Positions 887-37,708 of a stretch of DNA of 58,499 nucleotides are shown here, in pieces. The number at the start of each line of letters is the position of its first letter. Position 1 is the stretch's first letter. The notes under the pieces were generated by a model, which was given only the letters and a program-made list of their open reading frames with translations, did no database searches and was not told the DNA's origin. The position numbers were made by a program, and so were the translations under genes. Source of the DNA: Sphingopyxis sp. (GTDB lineage Bacteria > Pseudomonadota > Alphaproteobacteria > Sphingomonadales > Sphingomonadaceae); NCBI GenBank assembly GCA_013821905.1, contig PNJO01000002.1, positions 1 to 58,499 of the forward strand, read 5' to 3'.

Positions 887-1789
887 TCAGGCTTCGGGCT
901 TGTGCAGCGCCTGCATCGCCGCGCCGGCCGCGGCGGCGCGCGCAAAGGCGGCGGCGCCGAGGATCGGTTTCGGCCGTGTGGCATAGTCGCGCGGACTCAT
1001 CCCCATGAAGCGCTGGAAGTCGCGCGTGAACTGCGCCTGGTCGTAATAATGATAGTCGAGCGTATCGATCCACGCCATCGACGGGTCGAGCATGAAGCGC
1101 GCGAGACTGCGCAGGAAGCGCTGGCGCCGGATCAGCAGCTTGGGAGAAAATCCGAACGCGCGCAGGCTCAGCCGCTCGACCGAGCGTTCGGACAGGCCGA
1201 GCCGCCCGGCCAGTTCGGCGACGCTGGCGAGGTCGTCGTCGACGAGCGCGGCGTGCGCGGCGAGAATCTCGGGATCGTCGCGCGGGGCGCCCGCGAGATG
1301 CGCGACGAAATGATCGTCGATCGTCCGCGCGGCGGCCGCGACGTCGTTGGTCGCACGCAGCCGGTCTAGGAGCGGCGCAAAGGCAGCAAAGGCGGGATGC
1401 ACCGCGCCGTCGCACAGCCGGTCGGCGAGCTCTTCGGCGGGAAGGGCGAAGAATTTGGCCCAACCCGCCGGCAGGATGCCGATCCCCCACAGGCGCATCG
1501 TGCCGGCCGAGAAATAGCTCGCGTGGCTCGTCGGCCCGGTGACGATGAAGCGCGGCGCGTGGGCGGGCTCGGCATCGCCGATCGCCGCCAGCGGCGCCTC
1601 GCCATCGACGAAGCGCAGATTCGCCCATTCAGGGTGGAGATAATCCTCGACGCGCGTGCCCGGCGGCGCCTCGATCTCGGTCAGATAGATGGTGCTGGCA
1701 TAGCGGCGCAGCGCGTCGGACACCGGAAAGAAGCGGGTCAGGACGCGCGCGCGGGCGCTTTCGGCCGGATTTGGTCCAGAATCCGCCAT
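887..1789 (-). CDS. AraC-family transcriptional regulator
   Basis: The C-terminal third (about residues 188-272 of 300) is an AraC-type double helix-turn-helix. The first helix pair is around [18 protein letters not shown] and the second around [20 protein letters not shown], which ends in the usual family signature. The N-terminal region resembles the sensor-like domain found in many short AraC proteins (DUF6597-like). The reading frame is open further upstream, but that stretch has an atypical composition, so I place the start at the ATG at 1789. The ligand and targets are unknown. It is transcribed with pheS and lies after the rplT terminator, so it probably has its own promoter in the 1790-2067 gap. 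Confidence 0.85.
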
Positions 1790-2067
1790 GCCCCATTTTG
1801 GGAAAGCGCGCGCAAAAAAACAACAATTTAAGCGGGGTCCGTGTCGGGTTTTTACAATTTTCACGGCCACCGCGCGCGCATATGTCGCGCCAGAGGGAAA
1901 CTTCGACCGGCCGGCGGCTATCTGCGACCCACGGCATTCGGTTCGGGCGGAGGGGGGCGATGGTTTCACTGGACCATTGTCGAAGCGGCGCGGGACCTAT
2001 CCTGCGCCGCTTCTTCTTTGTGCCGGCCACGGGCCTGGGCGCCGTCCCCAGAGCAAGTCCGACAACG
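1790..2067. other. Intergenic gap with a plus-strand terminator-like hairpin
   Basis: No convincing gene is seen between the AraC gene and the rplT terminator. On the plus strand 1982-1991 (GAAGCGGCGC) pairs perfectly with 2004-2013 (GCGCCGCTTC), and the right arm runs into a T-rich tail, TTCTTTG. This resembles a weak Rho-independent terminator for a plus-strand transcript, yet no plus-strand gene lies upstream. A smaller hairpin (ATGGT with ACCAT) lies just before it, near 1959-1977. The rest should contain the AraC promoter on the minus strand. Whether a small RNA is made here is inference. Confidence 0.35.
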
Positions 2068-2100
2068 AAAAAGGGCGGCCCCGTCGGGACCGCCCTTTTG
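2068..2100 (-). terminator. Rho-independent terminator after rplT
   Basis: Bases 2073-2082 pair with 2086-2095 (GGGCGG and CCC against GGG and CCGCCC) around a three-base loop. Read on the minus strand, the stem is followed by TTTTT at 2072-2068. It lies 22-54 bases past the rplT stop codon and fits the end of the rpmI-rplT transcript. Confidence 0.85.
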
Positions 2101-2121
2101 CTTTAGCGATTGCCTTGAGGC

Positions 2122-2487
2122 TCAGGCGGCCTTGGGCAGCGCCGCCTTCGCCTGCGCGATGATCGCGGTGAAGACACCACCTTCGTTCATCGCGAGGTCG
2201 GCCATGACCTTGCGGTCGAGTTCGATGCCGGCGAGCTTCACGCCGTGCATGAACTGCGAATAGGTCAGGCCTTCGGCGCGGACCGCGGCGTTGATGCGCT
2301 GGATCCACAGGGCGCGGAAGTTCCGCTTCTTGACCTTGCGATCACGGTAAGCGTACTGGCCGGCCTTTTCGACGGCCTGCTTGGCGATGCGGATCGTATT
2401 CTTGCGACGGCCATAATAGCCCTTCGCCTGTTCCAGAATCCGCTTGTGCTTGGCGCGCGTGGTCGTGCCGCGTTTGATACGGGACAT
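2122..2487 (-). CDS. rplT: 50S ribosomal protein L20
   Basis: This 121-residue basic protein starts [18 protein letters not shown] and has the L20 signatures [30 protein letters not shown] and LTYSQFMHG, at the normal length for the family. L20 binds 23S rRNA early in large-subunit assembly and, in several bacteria, represses translation of its own operon. It lies 13 bases after rpmI and is followed by a clear terminator. Identification is certain. Confidence 0.98.
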
Positions 2488-34698: not shown

Positions 34699-35337
34699 CT
34701 AACCCTGCTCGGCCAGCGCCTTGTCGATCAGCGATGCGCCGATCGGCCCCAATATGGTGCCGCCGAAGCGGAACAGGACAAAGGCGCCGGCGAACAACAA
34801 CAGTGGCTCGACGAACAGCGCCACGATCGCCACGATCAGCGCGACGAAGAAGAGCGTGACGAAACCGCTGCTCAGCACCTGCTGACCCTTGGCGCCGAGC
34901 TCGATGGTGCGCGGGCCTTTGGCATCCCACCACTTGCCGGTGACGATCGTCTTGTGCGCGATCGCGCGCCCCGTTTGCGGCGCCGGACGCTGAGGGATGC
35001 GCGCGGGCTGTGGCGGGGTGACCGTGCTGCGCGGTTTCGCGCCGTCGGTCCAGGGCCGTTTCTTGTTGTTGTTCATCGCTGCAACCGCAGCGGCCATCCG
35101 GTCGTTCGGCAGCCGCGGCGGGTCGCGTTCCGGCGCCGGGGCGGTTTCGACGATTGCGGCCGGCTCCACCACGACCCGTGTCGCAGGCCGGCTTGGTTCG
35201 ACCCCCATCCGGCGATCATGGGCATCCATGCGCTCGGCGGCGGTCGGCGGCGTCTGGCCGGTTTCCCTGTCGATCACCACCAGCCGCCCGCCGCGTTCGA
35301 CGACGGAAAAACGGCTGGGAGGCGGGCGGTCAACCAA
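34699..35337 (-). CDS. Hypothetical membrane protein downstream of ribH
   Basis: The 212-residue protein has a long hydrophilic N-terminus (proline- and arginine-rich, with [22 protein letters not shown]) and one or two membrane segments between about 157 and 197 ([28 protein letters not shown]). I do not recognise a family. The start is TTG at 35337, overlapping the ribH stop codon by 8 bases, with AAGGAA spaced 9 bases ahead; this is the only well-placed start. It is therefore likely translated with the rib operon. Confidence 0.65.
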
Positions 35338-35755
35338 TACCGAATTGTTCCTTCAGGGCCAGCATCGCGAGCGCGGCCTTCGCCGCTTCGCCGCCCTTAT
35401 CCTTGCGCGTCTTGTCGGCGCGCGCAAGCGCCTGTTCTTCATTCTCGACGGTGAGGATGCCGTTGCCGATGGCCAGGCCGTCGAGCGTCAGCGCCATGAT
35501 CCCGCGCGCGCTCTCGTTCGACACGACCTCGAAATGATAGGTTTCGCCGCGGATCACCACGCCCAGCGCGACATAGGCATCGTAGCGCCCGCTGTCGGCG
35601 GCGAGCGAGATCGCTGCCGGCACTTCGAGCGCGCCGGGCACCGTCACCGTCTCGTGGCTGTGGCCCTCGGCCTCGAGTGCGCTGCGTACGCCGTCGAGCA
35701 GCATGTCGTTGAGGTGGCTGTAGAAACGGGCTTCGACGATCAGGACGTGCGCCAT
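35330..35755 (-). CDS. ribH: 6,7-dimethyl-8-ribityllumazine synthase
   Basis: The 141-residue enzyme starts [17 protein letters not shown] and has [29 protein letters not shown] and [12 protein letters not shown]. It condenses the DHBP product of RibBX with the ribityl-aminopyrimidine made by RibD and a phosphatase. It lies immediately downstream of ribBX, with one overlapping base at TGATG, so the two proteins are coupled. The position of conserved His in GETYHFE matches catalysis. Confidence 0.96.
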
Positions 35756-37029
35756 CAGGCTTCTCCGGGAATGGGGCGTTCGCCGACGACCGACAGGCCA
35801 TAGCCTTCGAGACCGACGATATTGCTGTGGGTGGGGGTGAGCAGTTCCATCGCATGGACGCCAAGGTCGGCGAGAATCTGTGCGCCGATGCCATAGGTGC
35901 GCAGGTCCATGCCGCCGGTCGGCGGCGGGAGCGCATCGGCTTCGGCCGAGCCGGGCAGCGGGCGCATCAGCATCACGATGACGCCCGCACCCGCCTCGCC
36001 GATCGCATCCATCGCGCGCTGCAGGCGGCGCTTCTTCGGTCCCGGCCGTCCCATGACGTCGTCGAAGAGCGACACGGGATGCATCCGCACCAGCGTCACG
36101 CCCGCGGGATCGACCGGGCCTTTCTGCAGCACCAGATTGACCGTGCCGTCGATCTTGTTGCGATAGGATTTGAGCCGCCAGTCGCCGCCATAGTCCGACT
36201 CGAACGGTTCGTCGGCGACGCATTCGACCAGCCGGTCGGTGCGGTTGCGATAGGCGATCAGGTCGGCGATCGTGCCGATCTTCAGCCCGTGGCGCCGGGC
36301 GAAGGGGACGAGATCGTCGAGCCGCGCCATCGTGCCGTCGTCGTTCATGATCTCGCAGATCACGCCCGAGGGGTTGAGCCCGGCGAGCCGCGCGATATCG
36401 ACCGACGCTTCGGTATGGCCGGCGCGCACGAGCACGCCGCCGTCGCGCGCGATCAGTGGAAAGACATGGCCGGGGGTGACGATGTCGTCGCGGCTCTTGC
36501 CCGCGTCGATCGCCACCGCGACGGTGCGCGCGCGGTCGCCCGCCGAAATGCCGGTCGTCACGCCTTCGCGCGCCTCGATCGAGGTGGTGAAGGCGGTTTC
36601 GTGCCGCGTGCCGTTGTTCCGGCTCATCAGCTCGAGCCCGAGTGTGTCGACGCGTGCCTTGGTGAGCGTCAGGCAGATGAGGCCGCGGCCGTGCGTCGCC
36701 ATGAAGTTGATCGCGTCGGGGGTCGCCATCTGCGCGGGAATGACGAGATCGCCCTCATTCTCGCGATCCTCGTCGTCGACGAGGATGAACATGCGGCCGT
36801 TGCGCGCCTCGGCGATGATCTCTTCGGGGGTCGCCATCGGTGACAGGTCGCTGCCGTTCGCCAGCCAGTTCTCGAGCTTGCGCAGCGTCTCGGCGGTGGG
36901 GTTCCAGCCGGGCGAATCGAGATCGCGCAAGCTGTTGGCGTGAAGACCCGCGGCCCGGGCGAGGCCTGAACGGGACATGGCCCCGTCGTCGACGATGGCG
37001 CGGATGCGATCGATGAGCTGTGTGGACAT
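35755..37029 (-). CDS. ribB: RibBX-type 3,4-dihydroxy-2-butanone 4-phosphate synthase with N-terminal HTH
   Basis: The 424-residue protein has three parts. Residues 1-60 form an XRE-like helix-turn-helix ([20 protein letters not shown], then [12 protein letters not shown]). Residues 65-265 are a full DHBP synthase with [35 protein letters not shown] and [11 protein letters not shown]. Residues 275-424 resemble GTP cyclohydrolase II but lack the three zinc cysteines and the RQEGR-type catalytic segment, so that activity is probably lost; the domain matches the described RibBX variant. A separate ribA is expected elsewhere. The upstream gap carries a palindrome. An operator-binding role for the HTH is inference. 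Confidence 0.9.
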
Positions 37030-37035
37030 GGCACC

Positions 37036-37064
37036 CGAATATCACACCACAGTGTGATCGTCAA
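37036..37064 (-). promoter_or_regulatory. ribBX promoter with palindrome in the spacer
   Basis: On the minus strand TTGACG (complement of 37059-37064) is separated by 17 bases from TATTCG (complement of 37036-37041). The palindrome ATCACAC-CACA-GTGTGAT at 37041-37058, with 7-base perfect arms, fills the spacer. A repressor bound there would block RNA polymerase. The -10 match is weak (3 of 6). Confidence 0.5.
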
Positions 37065-37084
37065 ACGTCATATCACATTTTGAG

Positions 37085-37708
37085 CTATTTGGGCCCGAAG
37101 ACCGCGCCATTGTCGCGCAGCGCGCCATCGGGCTTGGCGTCGAGCAGCGCGAGGATCTGGCCGGTCCGGTCGTCGCGCTTGGCATAGGCGCGCGCCGACA
37201 TTCCCGCGATATGGTCGGCCTTGTCGGGATTGGCGCCGCGGCGCACGAGCAGGCGGACCATCGCGTTGTTCTTGCCCTGCACCGCGAGGATCAGCGCGGT
37301 CTCGCCGCGCCGGTTGGTCTGGTCGACCGGCGCGCGGTCGTCGAGGATCGCTTCGGCGCCGTCGGTGAAATTGATCAGCGCGGCGTGCATCAGCGGCGTC
37401 ACCCCCTGCCGGTCGGCGATCGAGGGGTCGGCATCCTTGCTCAGCAGGAAGCGCACCCACTGGATATCGCGCCGCTTGGTCGCGATCGCGAGCGCGGTTT
37501 CGCCGCGGTCGGGGTGGCGCGTGTTGACCAGCGTCGGATCCTCCTTCAGCGCGTCGGTCGCCTTGCTCCCGTCGCGGTTCTCGACCGCCTGCAGAAAGGC
37601 GAAGCCGCCGCGGAACTGGGCGAGCGCGGGCGCCGCCGTGAGCGCGCCGGCGGCGGCACCGGCAACCAGAAGAAGCGAAGCGAGACGGATTCCGGCGCGA
37701 CCGAACAT
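37085..37708 (-). CDS. Secreted ankyrin-repeat protein
   Basis: The 207-residue protein has a signal peptide (1-30, LLLVAGAAAGALTAAPALA) and four or five ankyrin repeats in 40-185, with typical GETALAIATKRRDIQWVRFLL and GETALILAVQGKNNAMVRLL stretches. It probably binds another protein in the periplasm. The frame is open upstream, but that stretch is not homologous. It is separated from ribBX by 55 bases, which contain the rib promoter; the gene ends with an LRDNGAVFGPK tail. Confidence 0.85.
   Translation of the reverse strand: MFGRAGIRLASLLLVAGAAAGALTAAPALAQFRGGFAFLQAVENRDGSKATDALKEDPTLVNTRHPDRGETALAIATKRRDIQWVRFLLSKDADPSIADRQGVTPLMHAALINFTDGAEAILDDRAPVDQTNRRGETALILAVQGKNNAMVRLLVRRGANPDKADHIAGMSARAYAKRDDRTGQILALLDAKPDGALRDNGAVFGPK

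Follow-up and report, generated by a model that had tools for sequence, protein, structure and literature searches.

The riboflavin-synthesis enzyme RibBX of Sphingomonadaceae carries an N-terminal helix-turn-helix (HTH) domain that co-occurs with a palindrome in the promoter of its own gene, and a stand-alone version of this HTH with the same sites is present in a prophage. We consider it probable that a phage-derived, cro-like HTH was fused together with its operator to RibBX, which would make the enzyme its own repressor. The gene was studied in a 58,499-nt stretch of Sphingopyxis sp. DNA (contig PNJO01000002.1, assembly GCA_013821905.1), hereafter the window, whose host family is Sphingomonadaceae of the order Sphingomonadales according to the GTDB lineage of the source. 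Feature coordinates are collected in Table 1.

Table 1. Features of the HTH-ribBX locus, in window positions; operator and promoter boxes are predicted.
Feature	Position	Strand	Details
Ankyrin-repeat gene	37088-37660	-	Upstream neighbour; gap from its end to ribBX 55 bp
Distal half-site ATGTGAT	37072..37078	-	In register with the proximal site, at a distance of about 31 bp
Possible -35 box TTGACG	37059..37064	-	TTG at this place in 63/87 loci
Proximal operator (predicted)	37041..37058	-	Palindrome ATCACAC-TGTG-GTGTGAT in promoter spacer; two mismatches to family consensus
Possible -10 box TATTCG	37036..37041	-	TA at this place in 50/87 loci; ends 6 bp before ATG
HTH-RibBX coding sequence	35755..37029	-	424 aa; ATG at 37029, stop 35757-35755
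XRE/Cro-type HTH, residues 1-60	36850..37029	-	Assigned via relatives; putative recognition helix about GLHANSLRD, residues 28-36
RibB (DHBP synthase) domain, residues 69-260	36250..36825	-	Pfam PF00926 DHBP_synthase, 279.7 bits, E 1.2e-83
GTP cyclohydrolase II-like (RibX) domain, residues 271-418	35776..36219	-	Pfam GTP_cyclohydro2, E 2.3e-29
ribH (lumazine synthase)	35330..35755	-	Pfam DMRL_synthase, E 4e-44

The RibB part of the protein scored above the curated cut-off (TIGR00506, 232.7 vs 177.45 bits), whereas the RibX domain fell far under that of RibA (TIGR00505, 34.2 vs 205.85 bits). Despite a score below its cut-off of 513, the RibBX model NF010626 (PRK14019) was the top-scoring bifunctional model for the whole protein (444.4 bits). 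The ribBX stop codon and the ribH ATG share one base, and the two genes therefore probably belong to the same operon. The window's own genome contained a single RibB match (assembly 90% complete, 362 contigs), and the nearest named relative of the protein, 92% identical, comes from a Sphingopyxis MAG. A full-length structure model reached a pTM of 0.59, which is too weak for judging the dimer. Elsewhere in the window, a suhB/mmgR-like small RNA was detected (Rfam RF00519, 26172-26245, minus strand, 54.8 bits).

Pfam left residues 1-66 of the full window protein without assignment. When N-termini were scanned singly, relatives matched the Cro/C1 model HTH_26 in 41 of 55 cases and HTH_3 in 39 of 55 (E ≤ 1; top E-values 1.7e-4 and 4.8e-7, respectively); the window's own N-terminus gave HTH_30 alone, at E 0.17 and under the cut-off, with no Pfam HTH above it. 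The XRE-like HTH that a sequence-only reading had placed at the N-terminus of RibBX is thus probable, with support coming through the Cro/C1 model matches of its relatives. Across 102 aligned N-termini the putative recognition helix was nearly invariant, GLH-(A/P)-N-(S/T)-LR, its fourth residue being A or P in 96%. A structure model of residues 1-70 (mean pLDDT 79.9) resembled HipB, SinR, C.Esp1396I, DdrO and P22 c2 in Foldseek (top probability 0.99, none at E ≤ 0.001), although residues 28-45, where the recognition helix is expected, were modelled without a helix. A profile search of PDB sequences with the HTH returned no convincing relative, the best match being a T4 lysozyme chain (E 0.069) and the first XRE protein following at 0.44. 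The dN of the HTH was well under its dS in 13 of 13 close pairs, and in every pair it exceeded the dN measured for RibB; purifying selection appears to act on the domain.

The two mismatches between the window palindrome and the family consensus TCACAT-N4-ATGTGA form a symmetrical pair. Within the window it was the sole match at ≤3 mismatches to its own arms (shuffles average 0.77), and its exact copy was unique in the window's genome; conservation in relatives, more than these window statistics, lifts it beyond chance. The consensus was drawn from the upstream DNA of 30 loci, not all of them oriented, and then applied to 130 oriented loci (102 with and 28 without the HTH), leaving out further listed family matches (13 with and seven without). 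At ≤2 mismatches and ≤150 bp upstream of the start, the site was present in 100 of the 102 HTH-bearing loci, a count that is partly circular because the 30 consensus loci belong to this set, compared with 0 of the 28 HTH-less loci. The HTH-bearing loci had 0, 1, 2 and 3 mismatches in 52, 31, 17 and 2 cases (n = 102, 150 bp). Sites were absent from the HTH-less loci even at three mismatches, the best fits having 4, 5 and 6 mismatches in 3, 15 and 10 loci, and dinucleotide shuffles of the HTH-bearing upstream regions came within two mismatches in 0.9% of cases and within three in 6.3%. The co-occurrence of HTH and palindrome anticipated by the sequence-only reading was therefore found in the homologue comparison. 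That reading had also named HTH homologues lacking the palindrome as evidence against it; none of the 102 was fully siteless, and two needed three mismatches.

Given this partial circularity, fairer evidence comes from named records and from an exact scan of whole genomes. All 13 named HTH-bearing records had the site at ≤2 mismatches, although the set had already included at least two of these contigs (L151, L157). The exact palindrome occurred at 64 places in 62 of 149 whole genomes, and 60 of these places preceded an HTH-ribBX gene by no more than 150 bp, while the reversed control pattern occurred at none; the four places away from HTH-ribBX were in G103, G104, G101 and G017. A search for a wider regulon with ATCACATTNNAATGTGAT at ≤2 mismatches in 30 HTH-bearing genomes found one place each in 24, of which 22 coincided with the ribBX promoter and two, in G103 and G127, lay elsewhere, and none in six genomes including the window's own; with a control pattern, two genomes had a single place each. 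The ribBX promoter itself seems to be the sole predicted target. Two other identities of the palindrome were dropped: a CRP site, whose half-sites are oriented oppositely in the consensus, and an RNA hairpin, given that the palindrome sits in the promoter spacer.

The spacer position proposed by the earlier reading was confirmed for the possible -35/-10 pair of the window, in which the palindrome fills the 17 bp between TTGACG and TATTCG. For the 87 loci whose proximal site was good, TTG was found 6-9 bp ahead of it in 63 and was absent there in 24, while TA directly followed the right arm in 50 and was absent there in 37. The operator thus appears usually to fill a predicted spacer of about 16-18 bp, and its overlap with the gene's own putative promoter is the arrangement expected of an autorepressor. 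In 44 of the 87 loci an exact second half-site, ATGTGA, had an offset between -23 and -20 relative to the proximal site; the proximal arm aside, it recurred in two or more loci at no further offset. A half-site 20-23 bp before the proximal site implies a second site 30-33 bp upstream. A two-site model fitted 101 of 102 loci at ≤9 of 24 mismatches, mostly with a spacing of 31 or 32 (reversed controls, 0 of 102), but the half-site count is the better evidence because the proximal site alone yields part of this contrast; both distal halves were missing at one mismatch in 17 of 102 loci.

With 6 bp separating the predicted -10 box from the ATG, transcription would start at or beside it, and the ribBX mRNA is probably leaderless, which would leave no room for a riboswitch ahead of the gene. 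In agreement with the earlier reading, no FMN riboswitch (RF00050) was detected in the window, in the window's genome or in 149 host-family genomes, the last searched with stricter filters and ≤20 candidates scored per genome.

Among the sampled genomes, the fusion of this HTH to RibBX is confined to one family. A profile search matched the HTH in at least 327 of 397 host-family genomes. In the order sample, a 70-aa HTH query matched RibBX in none of 83 genomes from other families and matched other proteins in three cases; full-length RibBX matches from these families started mostly near residue 55-70 (G225 at 21, G202 at 40). In the class sample, the HTH was found on RibBX only in the window's genome and one family member, with two weak matches on other proteins. 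One N-terminal match (L165, 3-421) was discarded as a run-on within a different reading. When mapped on a tree of 138 RibBX cores, presence of the HTH required 11 changes, four of them forced by well-supported branches. Four independent pairs could be placed on such branches, and the operator went with the HTH in 4.0 of them on average over 200 pairings (sign test, p 0.125, four pairs being too few for significance). Some genomes that carry HTH-RibBX have second RibBX copies lacking both HTH and operator (L107-L111, in G122, G133 twice, G127 and G085). Many of the HTH-less copies L112-L134 seemingly lie directly after ribE, as judged by eye in their upstream sequences, and loss of HTH and operator may be linked to the entry of ribBX into the ribE operon.

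The HTH and its operator were also found together apart from the enzyme. In G017, both RibBX copies lack the HTH, yet the genome holds a free gene for a 68-aa HTH protein (profile E 6.8e-23) with the helix GLHPNTLRD, and an IMG/VR viral contig encodes an identical protein (prophage gene: G017, L302/L310). This gene faces one for a CI-like repressor (phrog_4, E 7.1e-17); the same element also encodes a phage primase at a greater distance (phrog_6088, E 3.7e-109). Within 20 kb of G017 and 10 kb of the viral contig, four sites at ≤1 mismatch formed two pairs with a 31-bp spacing in each; one of the pairs is directly ahead of the stand-alone HTH gene. A CI-like gene opposite a small HTH gene, with paired sites, matches the typical arrangement of cro/cI immunity regions. 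Because the prophage gene carries the same sites, the HTH is tied to the operator without RibB. A plasmid search found no relative of the stand-alone HTH, and the one match among phage records, in Pan3, was rejected since it overlaps genes annotated on the opposite strand. In G101, a stretch judged prophage-like by eye (L301 11185-11315, contig 21) has one exact and two near-exact sites, and no HTH relative was found in 20 kb.

More distant relatives differ in helix and in site. Those with the helix DT(T/V)LR (L303, L312, L305, L141, L320) fitted TCGCAT-N4-ATGCGA at one mismatch and TCACAT-N4-ATGTGA at two or three, while L302 showed the reverse (one mismatch to TCACAT-N4-ATGTGA vs two to TCGCAT-N4-ATGCGA) and L313, with the helix HPN, fitted both patterns poorly (three and three). 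The core CAT-N4-ATG, a pattern chosen after these sequences had been viewed and reached in 2.6% of mononucleotide shuffles, lay within 110 bp upstream in 8 of 15 relatives without RibB and was absent in seven. A recognition code in which DT pairs with ATGCG, and AN or PN with ATGTG, is possible. The promoters of the small stand-alone HTH genes L320 (G753), L141 (G159), L305 and L312 hold as many as three CGCAT-N4-ATGCG-like sites. CoaBC, too, bears a related XRE HTH at its N-terminus in two genera from a sister family (L139 in G177, 991-2463, minus strand; L140 in G218), which makes 2 fusions among the 114 genomes where CoaBC was matched (L139, TIGR00521, 423.3 bits); no clear palindrome was seen by eye in these two promoters.

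Self-repression, as the sequence-only reading had suggested, would be the natural reading of the HTH-palindrome pairing, the site in the promoter spacer and the absent FMN riboswitch. In the mechanism we propose, the Cro-like N-terminus would recognise TCACAT-N4-ATGTGA. RibB is a dimer; as RibBX dimers accumulate, they would occupy the proximal site, with the distal site assisting in what may be cooperative binding, and bound RibBX would exclude RNA polymerase from the ribBX-ribH promoter. Plain feedback by protein amount would suffice to explain the data. The sequence-only reading did not anticipate the distal site, the stand-alone prophage HTH with its matching sites or the confinement of the fusion to one family among the sampled genomes. 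As to origin, a cro-like gene most likely landed in frame before ribBX in the family ancestor and brought along its promoter and operators, with HTH and operator later being lost jointly in some lineages.

A refinement of this scheme, in line with the flavin or substrate sensing proposed by the sequence-only reading, would add a ligand, with binding tuned by FMN, riboflavin, GTP or ribulose 5-phosphate at the RibB site or at the degenerate RibX. The GTP cyclohydrolase II-like domain has been kept though it scores far below the RibA cut-off and could act as a sensor, and a passage of PMC8305020 gives archaeal RbkR the two roles of regulator and enzyme. However, the HTH-less copies keep RibX as well, so that it is not kept for sensing alone, and the stand-alone prophage HTH lacks an enzyme part; we regard ligand gating as possible but on the doubtful side. 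It is very unlikely that the HTH activates its own promoter: the best site starts at least 43 bp before the ATG in 14 to 23 HTH-bearing loci, a place compatible with an activator, but most commonly it falls within the roughly 16-18 bp spacer, and a protein bound there would obstruct polymerase.

The sites of the prophage-like stretch in G101, with no HTH relative found in 20 kb, could suggest that the palindrome serves another regulator and that the HTH is idle or merely aids dimerisation. We hold this to be extremely improbable, given that none of the 28 HTH-less copies has kept the palindrome and that a stand-alone HTH gene bears the same sites. It also seems unlikely that the transfer ran the other way, with the prophage acquiring HTH and operator from an HTH-ribBX gene. 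Such a direction would agree with the ATGTGA-operator version being seen in only one element, in contrast to the common occurrence of the RibBX fusion across the family; against it, several more distant stand-alone relatives occur in viral contigs or other genomes, some opposite a CI-like gene, and the phage-like site pairs fit an immunity region. Capture of a phage-derived HTH by ribBX, followed by self-repression, is the reading we prefer.

Proteins that are both enzyme and repressor of their own pathway, with ligand control established, include PutA, BirA and NadR; these are other enzymes with other DNA-binding folds or arrangements, and for RibBX ligand control would be no more than a possibility. 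Compared with the small Cro/C1-type repressors of phages, the HTH of RibBX is alike in being, probably, a small XRE domain with two sites 31 bp apart, and in the CI-like gene opposite its prophage relative, but unlike them it forms the N-terminus of an enzyme and sits at the promoter that it is predicted to control. HTH-less RibBX proteins (NF010626, TIGR00506) share the RibB-RibX domain order and, unlike HTH-RibBX, those of the family lack the operator (0 of 28). The HTH class and operator of RbkR differ from those of RibBX. According to the accessible text of PMC8305020, RbkR of archaea joins an HTH to a CTP-dependent riboflavin kinase and is regulator and enzyme in one; it resembles the predicted RibBX system in being a flavin-synthesis enzyme with an N-terminal HTH as regulator, whereas RibBX is a DHBP synthase rather than a kinase, is bacterial rather than archaeal and seems to target its own promoter only. 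A term search of the available text of two riboflavin reviews (PMC12542839, PMC13028884) gave no mention of RbkR, helix-turn-helix or Sphingo, and PMC3766115 names groups without FMN regulons, with no mention of Sphingomon in its accessible part. Among the matches listed in our literature search, which covered few subscription papers, there was no report of HTH-RibBX self-repression. Enzyme-repressors are thus already known, and the RibBX version, with its probable phage origin, would be a new variant.

More speculatively, a phage Cro-type repressor and its operator could have been domesticated for vitamin B2 regulation in a riboswitch-less family, with the enzyme half sensing metabolites, and separately the CoaBC-fused HTH could point to a recurrent module that turns coenzyme-synthesis enzymes into self-repressors; we consider this rather doubtful. 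For the family itself, our findings predict how B2 synthesis would be controlled in a large group of bacteria without a detected FMN riboswitch and supply an exact predicted operator. A likely one-step route from enzyme to repressor would be the capture of a cro-like phage gene along with its promoter.
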